From a virus, in the IMG/VR virus record IMGVR_UViG_3300033553_000551, positions 1 through 22,900 of that record: DNA of 22,900 bases. The stretch is one strand, 5' to 3'. The position numbers and the translations under genes were made by a program. The notes beneath the pieces are model-generated. The model saw only the letters and a list, made by a program, of their open reading frames with translations. It was not told the origin of the DNA and did not search any database. Numbering within the stretch: position 1 is the stretch's first letter; every line of letters begins with the position of its first letter. Below, in pieces: positions 15,985 through 18,585 of this stretch.

Positions 15985-16407
15985 ATGAACGAAAGCAAAA
16001 GAGTCATTAACGGTACCTTTGGTTACGTGTGGGTCGATAACGAAATTTGGCTGGAAGTTGAGTCATTCGAAGCAATTGTAAATGTCGACTATGAAGATCA
16101 ACACATGGCAGGAAGTCTTGCTACACATAAAAGACAAATTGGTTGGAATGGAACAGGAAGCATGACGATCAAAAAAGTGAGAAGCAGAATGGCTTCAAAA
16201 CTAGCGCAAGGAATTAAATCAGGAAGATTGCCAAGAGTTAAGATTGTAGGCAAACTTGCGGACCCCGATGCACTTGGAGCAGAACGAGTTGCAATTTACG
16301 ATGTAACATTCGACTCGCTGACACTTATGAAGTTTGAACAGAAAACTTTGCTAAAAGAAGATGTAAGTTTCGCGTTCAGCAACTACGATCCGATTGATTT
16401 AATTTAG
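15985..16407 (+). CDS. Tail tube protein (XkdM-like)
   Basis: A 140-aa beta-rich protein: RVINGTFGYVWVDNEIWLEVESFEA, shown as GTFGYVWVDNEIWLE, then IGWNGTGSMTIKKVRSRM and YDVTFDSLTLMKFEQKTL. These match XkdM-type tube subunits. It forms the inner tube inside the sheath, through which DNA is delivered. The gene follows the sheath gene after a TAAGGAGGAAGC ribosome site, the expected order. Length and pattern are normal for the family. Confidence 0.92.
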   Translation: MNESKRVINGTFGYVWVDNEIWLEVESFEAIVNVDYEDQHMAGSLATHKRQIGWNGTGSMTIKKVRSRMASKLAQGIKSGRLPRVKIVGKLADPDALGAERVAIYDVTFDSLTLMKFEQKTLLKEDVSFAFSNYDPIDLI

Positions 16408-16416
16408 AGGTGAAAG

Positions 16417-16788
16417 ATGGAAAACAAAACATTAACCATTAAAGAGTTGATTGAAAAAAAAGAAAAAATTTCAAAGAAAAAATCAAAAAGAGAAACGTTG
16501 TTTGTAAAATCGTTTGAAAGTGACATTGTAATCACGGCGCCGACTTCATCATTGATATTGGAAGCGCAAGAAATGGGCGAAGACGACGCCACAAGAGCAG
16601 ACATGTATTTGGTTTTCGAATGCGTCGTTGAACCAGACTTGAAAGACAAAAGTCTGCACGAAGCATACGGATGCGCAGACCCGATTGATATTGTGAACGA
16701 GTTATTTCTTCCTGGCGAAGTGGCAGGAATTGCTGACAAAATCATGAAGCTTGGTGGCTTCGGAGGCTCTGTTGAAATAAAAAACTAA
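16417..16788 (+). CDS. Tail assembly chaperone, unshifted product (XkdN-like)
   Basis: A 123-aa protein. The N-terminal Lys-rich segment (LTIKELIEKKEKISKKKSK) leads to strands (ETLFVKSFESDIVITAP) and helices (TSSLILEAQEMGEDD) and ends with EVAGIADKIMKLGGFGGSVEIKN. This matches the XkdN family of tail assembly chaperones that, with a frameshifted longer form, coat the tape-measure protein during tail building. The reading frame ends immediately after the heptamer A AAA AAC. GAGGTGAAAG precedes the ATG. Not part of the finished virion, by family knowledge. Confidence 0.88.
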   Translation: MENKTLTIKELIEKKEKISKKKSKRETLFVKSFESDIVITAPTSSLILEAQEMGEDDATRADMYLVFECVVEPDLKDKSLHEAYGCADPIDIVNELFLPGEVAGIADKIMKLGGFGGSVEIKN

Positions 16789-16949
16789 TAAGTAGTGATC
16801 AGGATTTATATCTTCTGCATCACTACTTGCAAAAAGGTCACAGACTTAAAGACCTATTAAAATTGGACCATGCCGAGAAGGCATTCATGATTCAAAGCAT
16901 GGTCCTTTACTATGAAGAACAAGCGAAGAGGTGGGGAGAAAATGAGTAG
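16417..16949 (+). CDS. Tail assembly chaperone, -1 frameshift product (XkdN plus extension)
   Basis: A -1 slip on AAAAAAC (16779-16785) moves the ribosome from the XkdN frame to a frame that stays open from 16785 to the TAG at 16947-16949. This adds 54 codons: LISSDQDLYLLHHYLQKG..., ending AKRWGENE. The product would be about 177 aa. The extension has no good start codon or ribosome site of its own near its beginning, and its DLYLLHHYLQKG / LDHAEKAFMIQSM pattern is that of the second tail-chaperone ORF of myoviruses. Chaperone frameshifting here is widespread in tailed phages (lambda G/GT is the classic case). The extension's end overlaps the tape-measure start. Confidence 0.88.
16779..16828 (+). 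promoter_or_regulatory. Programmed -1 frameshift signal: slippery heptamer plus stem-loop
   Basis: The heptamer A AAA AAC (16779-16785) is in the correct phase: AAA and AAC are zero-frame codons, and the zero-frame stop TAA follows at once. Four bases later begins a perfect 10-base stem: AAGTAGTGAT (16790-16799) with ATCACTACTT (16819-16828). After a single bulged C, CAGGA (16800-16804) can extend it by pairing with TTCTG (16813-16817), one pair being G-U. Spacing and order fit a stimulated -1 frameshift site. Confidence 0.88.
16865..16905 (+). repeat. Inverted repeat ahead of tape-measure start
   Basis: GGACCATGC (16865-16873) and GCATGGTCC (16897-16905) are perfect 9-base arms with a 23-base loop. 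It lies within the frameshift extension, 37 bases before the tape-measure ATG, and could shape translation of that gene. Confidence 0.6.
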
Positions 16950-18585
16950 CAAAACCATAGAAAGACGAATAATGCTCAGAGATCAAGTAACCCCAACAAT
17001 GAGCAAAATCAACAAAAGCACCATCAATTACAAGAAAAACGTAAAAGACTTGAAAAGAAGTGGTGACAAAACATGGCGAAGCCTGAAGCGCAACATGGTA
17101 GGCGTAGCGATGGCGGGAGCGGCACTCGCAAAGTCTGTACTTGCGATAAGAGGGATGGAAGAAAAGTACATCATTCAGTCACAAGCTCTTGCGAAATTAG
17201 AAGCAGTATTCAGAGCGACAGGAAGAGCAACTGATGAAGAAGTGCTGAGCCTGAAGAAATATTCATCAGAATTACAAGGATTAGGAGTCATCGGGGACGA
17301 AGTGATTCACTCTGGGATGCAACAACTCGCCACGTTTAATGTAACTGCGGATACAGTGAAGACTTTATCTGAAGGAATGATGGACCTTGTCGCCCAAACA
17401 AAAGGACTCGACGCCACTGGTCAAGACGCAGTCAATATTGCGAACATGATTGGAAAGGCAATGGGCGGGCAAATTGGCGCACTTTCAAGAGTAGGAATAT
17501 CCTTTACTGAAGCTCAAGGAAAAGTACTCAAATACGGAACCGAATCCGAAAAAGCGGCTACTATGGCTGAGGTATTAAGGCAAAATGTTGGCGGCGTCAA
17601 TGCGGCATTGGCGGCTACTGACGAAGGACAAATCAAGCAACTTAAAAACAGATTTGGGGACCTACAAGAAACAGTTGGAAGCGTCATGGTCAACATTAAA
17701 GCATCTTTTGCCAGTGCTTTCAACGAAAATATGCCTGCAATTGAAGCAAGAGTAAACGCTGTGGCAGACTCTTTGAACAGATGGGTAGATGAAGGCGGAA
17801 TAACAAGATTTATCGAAACAGTTGGAATCGTGAAGCAAACGTTAGTAGACCTGTCGCCTATAATTGGAGCGGTAGCAACAGCTATAGGCATTTACAAAAT
17901 TAATGCATTATACGCAACCTTAACACAACAAGGATTAAATGCGGCGATGATGGCAAACCCGATCGGGTTTGTAATTGGATTGTTAGTGGGCCTAGTAACG
18001 GTAATAACGATTGTAAGAAAAAACAAAGAGACGCTTAAAATAAAATTCATGACTACCTGGAACGCAATTGCTGGATATGCAGAAGGAGCGATCAACAGGA
18101 TGATTGGCGGACTCAACACAATGCTGAGCGGAGTAAGTTACTTCAAAGACAATGTGGTTTACTTTTTCGAGAACATGTGGAACATAGTAGTGAGCATGGC
18201 GGAAAGAAGAGCACAAGACTTCCTGAAGCCGATGAACGCTATGCTGAGAGCCATGGGTAAAGAAGAAATCAAAGTAAACTTCAGCGCAGTGAAAAGAGAA
18301 TCAAGCAAACCAGTTTATGAAAAGAGAAATTTCATAGACGAAATTGAAGTGAAGAGGTTTTCAAACGACACCATTTCCGCGATCGAAGAAGCACGAAGAA
18401 GAAAACAAGAAAAGCAAATTGAAGACAACACAAAAGCAATGGCAGCTCTATCCGACGATCTTTCAGAAAACACATCTGAGCTCACGAAAAACACTGAAGC
18501 ACTTAAGAAGTCGAGCAAAGACCTAACGGGAGAAGAAATAGCGGACAAGTTGCTTCCTAGATTGGAGAGGGTTGTTTATGGTTAA
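16942..18585 (+). CDS. Tail tape measure protein
   Basis: A 547-aa protein. I choose the ATG at 16942 (MSSKTIERRIMLRDQVTPTM), with GGTGGGGAG just upstream; the frame is open back to 16912. The N-terminus is the usual 'DQVTPTMSKI' tape-measure start, followed by coiled coil, a Gly/Ala-rich hydrophobic helix (VGVAMAGAALAKSVLAIRG), the helical region with LGVIGDEVIHSGMQQLATF, and two hydrophobic stretches (SPIIGAVATAIGIYKI and PIGFVIGLLVGLVTVITIV). The end is a coiled coil (ALSDDLSENTSELTKNTEALK). At about 0.15 nm per residue it implies a tail near 80 nm, which is estimate only. No lysozyme or peptidase domain is visible. Confidence 0.92.
   Translation: MSSKTIERRIMLRDQVTPTMSKINKSTINYKKNVKDLKRSGDKTWRSLKRNMVGVAMAGAALAKSVLAIRGMEEKYIIQSQALAKLEAVFRATGRATDEEVLSLKKYSSELQGLGVIGDEVIHSGMQQLATFNVTADTVKTLSEGMMDLVAQTKGLDATGQDAVNIANMIGKAMGGQIGALSRVGISFTEAQGKVLKYGTESEKAATMAEVLRQNVGGVNAALAATDEGQIKQLKNRFGDLQETVGSVMVNIKASFASAFNENMPAIEARVNAVADSLNRWVDEGGITRFIETVGIVKQTLVDLSPIIGAVATAIGIYKINALYATLTQQGLNAAMMANPIGFVIGLLVGLVTVITIVRKNKETLKIKFMTTWNAIAGYAEGAINRMIGGLNTMLSGVSYFKDNVVYFFENMWNIVVSMAERRAQDFLKPMNAMLRAMGKEEIKVNFSAVKRESSKPVYEKRNFIDEIEVKRFSNDTISAIEEARRRKQEKQIEDNTKAMAALSDDLSENTSELTKNTEALKKSSKDLTGEEIADKLLPRLERVVYG

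Follow-up and report, generated by a model that had tools for sequence, protein, structure and literature searches.

Does translation of the tail assembly chaperone gene in this phage always end at its stop codon, or are some ribosomes carried past the stop into a second reading frame? The question is raised by a short junction in the window, by which we mean the whole 22,900-base virus record analysed here. Matches to Pfam and PHROGs profiles in the window include genes for terminase, capsid, sheath, tube, chaperone, tape measure and baseplate; the source phage is thus contractile-tailed, and no DNA similarity to named phages was detected for the window at the blastn level. On the + strand, to which all features below belong, a tail tube gene of XkdM type (15985..16407; PF09393, 5.7e-46) stands upstream of ORF1 (16417..16788; 0-frame product 123 aa), and a tape-measure gene (16942..18585; phrog_27166, 7.4e-13), with its own Shine-Dalgarno (SD) sequence ggtgggga, stands downstream. 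ORF1 matched PF08890 with an E-value of 8.9e-14 (52 bits, the curated cut-off being 27) and the tail assembly chaperone family phrog_4976 with 4.9e-35, and its profile also finds YqbN of B. subtilis (PDB 3KLU). In phiCD08011 (L009, 499-882), phiHugo (L124, 597-1010) and also CD2301, the corresponding chaperone gene is labelled 'portal protein', apparently a copied misannotation. As set out below, the end of ORF1 is very probably a site of programmed -1 ribosomal frameshifting, of the lambda G/GT type, in a tail assembly chaperone of the XkdN family, with an ORF1-ORF2 fusion of about 177 aa as the predicted product.

The initial annotation had described this junction as a complete -1 frameshift cassette, and its coordinates and counts were all correct, base for base. 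The slippery heptamer A_AAA_AAC, said to lie in the right phase, does so at 16779-16785, the 0-frame codons across the junction being GAA ATA AAA AAC TAA. The zero-frame TAA, said to be the very next codon, is found at 16786-16788, directly 3' of the heptamer, and a second TAA (16789-16791) follows directly. Among 6,587 codons scanned in the ORFs of the window, A_AAA_AAC occurs in phase five times, and it adjoins a stop only at 16779-16785. Slippery words at ORF ends are rare: any word of the form XXXYYYZ was found at the ends of only 2 of 241 other ORFs of at least 100 aa in the loci compared.

Relatives of the junction were gathered by tblastn and profile scans from IMG/VR, named phages (hosts Clostridioides, Terrisporobacter, Monoglobales and Lachnospiraceae) and GTDB genomes (Clostridia, Bacilli and Negativicutes), and 75 non-redundant relatives, the window included, were left after removal of identical junctions. 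The alignment with related phages that the initial annotation had proposed as a check on the heptamer gave an unbroken result: the heptamer is present at the end of ORF1 in 75/75, as A_AAA_AAC in 71 and as A_AAA_AAG in 4. The stop follows directly in 68 of the 75 and one codon later in the other 7. Canonical XkdN genes were also retrieved with PF08890, from 199 genomes of the order of Jeotgalibacillus plus Anaerovirgula; of 21 further loci found in this way, leaving out L121 (below the cut-off) and repeats of earlier loci, all 21 carry A_AAA_AAC, and in 19 the stop is the next codon. A further two named phages, retrieved via ORF2, agree, phiHugo having A_AAA_AAC TAA and Dulem virus 31 having A_AAA_AAG CCA TAG. 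The latter (L125, PP511318.1) is a 35.8-kb record, filed under Microviridae, in which genes for sheath, tube and tape measure are present. In the A_AAA_AAG loci L018, L022, L024, L125 and L055, one sense codon precedes the stop in 4 of 5; these come from few lineages, and a trade-off between heptamer strength and stop position, A_AAA_AAG being the more slippery, is possible.

This survey bears on two other explanations of the junction. The homopolymer might suggest a single gene, split into ORF1 and ORF2 by an indel or by an assembly error; the same junction in about 96 non-redundant records (75 + 21), including finished phage genomes and isolate genomes, refutes this explanation, and we give it practically no weight. 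The fused frame might also arise by slippage of the polymerase rather than of the ribosome, since a run of A6 is present in every relative. Six A residues are, however, a short run for polymerase slippage, the run is exactly six in 75/75 (the base before it always T or C, the base after it C or G), and the codon phase is in every case the one expected of tandem tRNA slippage. Transcriptional slippage, moreover, needs neither a positioned RNA stem nor an adjacent stop, yet both are selected, as described below, and we regard it as highly improbable.

Ribosomal slippage at the heptamer would lead into ORF2 (16785..16949), an extension of 54 codons in the -1 frame beginning with CTA. No stop interrupts the -1 frame between 16776 and the TAG at 16947-16949, a stretch over which the 0 and +1 frames are not open. 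In the relatives, the -1 frame is free of stops over 48 codons in 74/75 loci, whereas the other frames average 4 or more stops. Divergence at codon positions 1, 2 and 3 is 0.33, 0.24-0.26 and 0.50-0.52, respectively, the order expected of coding sequence, and the median pairwise dN/dS of ORF2 is 0.49, a modest value limited by noisy short sequences. From the pattern of sequence change, the -1 frame of ORF2 is coding. The extensions of the relatives share the pattern KKLI...YLQ.G...L...E..F...SM, in which K1, K2, I4 and G20 are invariant among 47 aligned members. ORF2 matches no Pfam family and no named homologue, and its sole family is phrog_10264, listed in PHROGs as 'unknown function'. An AlphaFold2 model built with 37 sequences gave a compact domain of three helices (pLDDT 89), for which no fold match with E of 0.001 or below was obtained, the best being E 4.6 in the PDB and 0.42 in BFVD.

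Could ORF2 instead be a separate protein, its translation reinitiating past the TAA or beginning at a start of its own within the gene, the A-run being incidental? It is annotated as a separate hypothetical protein in public records, and an in-frame ATG lies 33 nt after the start of the heptamer in 27/75 relatives. In L119, the only relative noticed in which the conserved Ile is Met, TAATG overlaps the stop, and termination-reinitiation is possible in that locus. The initial annotation had stated that the 54-codon frame lacks a start and had named, as evidence against frameshifting, relatives in which the second frame has its own conserved ribosome site and start. The frame itself stands as described, and in the window no ATG, GTG or TTG is found in it near the junction or ahead of the conserved part; as a statement about the whole frame the absence of a start does not hold, since TTG occurs at 16827 and ATGs occur from 16887 on. 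These are too late to make the conserved part of ORF2, and the TTG, the first candidate in the window, is buried in the 3' arm of the stem. Among the relatives, a start at or before the heptamer in the -1 frame was found in only 4/75, none with a convincing SD, no downstream start is common to all 75, and 19/75 have no scored start within the first 30 codons. The best SD has a median of -8.9 kcal/mol for gene 1 against -2.4 kcal/mol for ORF2. By this comparison, ORF2 has neither a conserved start nor a conserved ribosome site. Conservation begins at KKLI, ahead of any start, and independent translation of ORF2 would leave the invariant heptamer unexplained; we consider it very unlikely.

Under the frameshift reading, the position of the stop can be examined apart from the protein that is encoded. 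The first codon after the slip is Leu CTN, of which the last base determines whether the 0-frame TNA is a stop and is silent in the -1 frame. CTA or CTG, giving TAA or TGA in the 0 frame, was used in 67 of 69 CTN codons against 29.5 expected from the CTN usage of the genes themselves, and CTA alone in 58 against 11.9 expected. The corresponding P values, about 3e-24 for CTA or CTG and 2e-44 for CTA, are too small because relatedness is ignored; the excess of CTA and CTG spans distant lineages. The stop directly after the heptamer is thus selected beyond the needs of the -1 protein, a point that the initial annotation had missed. It may serve slippage or may simply mark the end of the first product. 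The adjacent stop is not indispensable, because 7/75 natural variants have one sense codon between heptamer and stop. In Desulfosporosinus L068, TCA stands where the window has TAA, a change without effect on the -1 frame product.

Downstream of the stop, the initial annotation had pointed to a perfect 10-bp stem beginning 4 bases after the heptamer and extendable past one bulge, and such a stem is indeed formed by 16790-16799 (AAGTAGTGAT) with 16819-16828 (ATCACTACTT). It extends outward by a U.G pair (16789/16829), giving an outer helix of 16789-16799 with 16819-16829, and past the bulged C16818 five more inner pairs join 16800-16804 to 16813-16817. The putative stimulatory stem-loop (16789..16829) thus consists of 11 outer pairs, the bulge, 5 inner pairs and a loop of 8 nt. 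Its minimum free energy is -17.9 kcal/mol (z -5.3), and none of 200 shuffles was equally stable; a single one of 20,000 dinucleotide shuffles gave a perfect stem of at least 10 bp at the same place, and across the window such stems occur at 0.17% of positions. When the first 48 nt in the window were compared with synonymous recodings preserving the -1 protein, z was -5.2, and 0/200 recodings were as stable. No match of note was found in Rfam.

Over the 75 sequences, the mean probability of pairing with a downstream segment reached 0.88-0.95 at +8 to +12 nt past the heptamer, where synonymous recodings gave 0.53-0.60; at -1 to +4 pairing was not raised. Four loci (L055, L088, L071 and L027) showed no excess pairing at the usual place. 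The short hairpin with the geometry of the window was found in 23 loci, 22 of them distinct. In these 22 relatives its helix is 90% paired with two-sided changes at 10 of 12 pairs, a level of covariation reached by 0/500 shuffles and not approached by any of six slid versions. The alignment proposed in the initial annotation as a check on the stem thus yielded both strong covariation and a positional peak of pairing, and the downstream stem is under selection. Within the short-hairpin group the bases of the two arms also encode the S-D and H-H-Y stretches conserved in the extension, and protein and RNA therefore share them.

The partner of the 5' arm differs between lineages. Clostridial relatives are without the short hairpin, and the same 5' arm pairs there with a segment about 76 nt further on; this long-range helix is 93% paired with two-sided change at 2 pairs, weaker evidence from only 8 sequences. 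Other lineages keep the position of the 5' arm and use still other partners. A proximal hairpin was rejected as a universal feature, since 18/47 loci lack a clear excess of folding in the first 48 nt (z above -1.64); many of these gain such an excess at 112 nt. Because the 5' arm is fixed and its partner varies, the conserved unit is no single sequence or loop but a helix that starts at a fixed distance from the heptamer. This difference in the 3' arm had also escaped the initial annotation.

It could be argued that the stem is kept for another reason, such as mRNA stability, masking of a site or termination, and that frameshifting proceeds by heptamer and stop alone, given that no single structure is conserved between distant lineages and that a second hairpin lies further downstream. 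The constant distance of the 5' arm from the heptamer, even where the partner moves by tens of nucleotides, fits a ribosome roadblock and nothing else obvious, however, and a terminator reading of the stem was rejected, as the coding strand here showed no terminator-like site. We therefore hold another role of the stem to be improbable, though somewhat less so than independent translation of ORF2 or transcriptional slippage. The second hairpin (16865-16905, GGACCATGC...GCATGGTCC) is located inside ORF2, about 80 nt past the slip site and just 5' of the tape-measure ribosome site, with -17.1 kcal/mol and z -3.4.

Upstream of the slip site, the window carries an SD-like GGAGG (16762-16766), 12 nt 5' of the heptamer, which is the spacing of known upstream stimulators. 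Its duplex with the anti-SD (-8.8 kcal/mol) is the strongest among the 75 loci and is not conserved, and it could be an extra stimulator of this phage only. An upstream SD was rejected as a general stimulator, being strong only in the window among the 75 loci compared.

Based on these observations, the -1 frameshift reading of the initial annotation gains support from the heptamer in all relatives, the covarying stem and the lack of a conserved start for ORF2, and the mode of expression in vivo can be predicted. Most ribosomes would terminate at TAA after ...EIKN and so produce the 123-aa chaperone. The stem, about 4-8 nt downstream, would delay a small fraction of them; these would slip back by one base on A AAA AAC, pass the stop and translate 54 further codons, and the resulting fusion would end in the three-helix domain. 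By analogy with lambda gpG and gpGT, the short product would cover the tape-measure protein, and the rare fusion would bring in tube subunits.

Frameshifting is likely to be infrequent, since A_AAA_AAC is a poor slippery site in E. coli and the adjacent stop lets the release factor compete. The heptamer is listed as low or inefficient in E. coli, though some insertion sequences probably use it (PMC4066793). At the HIV site, a stop next to the heptamer made frameshifting less frequent through release-factor competition, both in bacteria and in mammalian cells (PMC4373837). The cassette is probably tuned to infrequent slippage that is driven by the stem. It is also conceivable, though on balance doubtful, that the XkdN family represents a distinct design, in which a heptamer poor in E. 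coli, a stop at the A-site position and a positioned stem with a movable partner arm act together, the stop being a working part and slippage taking place after translocation (E/P sites) in competition with the release factor. If so, the chaperone ratio would depend on the termination capacity of the host. Inefficient heptamer and rate-lowering stop are both kept, and the family is natural material on which to study the mechanism, the alternatives being that Firmicutes ribosomes behave in another way and that selection favours a very low rate. The junction also provides a recoding signal that can be tested family-wide, in contractile-tailed phages and prophages of Clostridia, Bacilli and Negativicutes, and it predicts a second chaperone product where an unrelated hypothetical protein is now annotated.

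The cassette is of a known kind; its support is unusually good and its conservation clean. Studies of the lambda G/GT -1 frameshift are reportedly those of Levin 1993 and Xu 2004, the latter said to be the survey most likely to mention frameshifting in XkdN. No description of frameshifting in the XkdN family was found in the literature searched, which did not cover the Xu 2004 survey; within that literature the cassette is new for the family. Its less ordinary features are the heptamer that is inefficient in E. coli and the near-obligatory adjacent stop.

The -1 frameshift in the tail assembly chaperone of lambda has been reviewed (PMC5009743); the 30:1 ratio of the products is important there, and the tube protein is bound by the extension. 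A_AAA_AAC is also found in the g-t pair of an archaeal tailed virus (PMC5009743). As in lambda G/GT, the chaperone ORF in the window stands just before the tape-measure gene, the predicted -1 slip is near the end of that ORF, the C-terminal extension has no start of its own and low-level expression of the fusion is expected. Unlike lambda G/GT, the heptamer is A_AAA_AAC, the stop is the next codon and a clear positioned stem follows; ORF1 is of the XkdN family, from a contractile tail, and ORF2 has no detectable relation to gpT. ORF1 is a member of the XkdN/YqbN chaperones of PBSX-like contractile phages (PF08890, phrog_389, phrog_4976), further loci of which share the A_AAA_AAC-stop junction and the KKLI extension, and YqbN (PDB 3KLU) also ends in KN. 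The run of A in the heptamer, the downstream stem and the GGAGG of the window resemble a dnaX-type site (A_AAA_AAG, upstream SD and downstream stem). Assignment to that type was rejected: the last base of the heptamer is C in 71/75, the upstream SD is not conserved, and the predicted product is an extension and not a truncation. Rous sarcoma virus and barley yellow dwarf virus have -1 sites in which the codon after the heptamer is a stop (PMC4373837); as in these viruses, the stop lies directly 3' of the heptamer with structure downstream, whereas the present site would be read by bacterial ribosomes on another heptamer, and selection on the stop is seen here family-wide.
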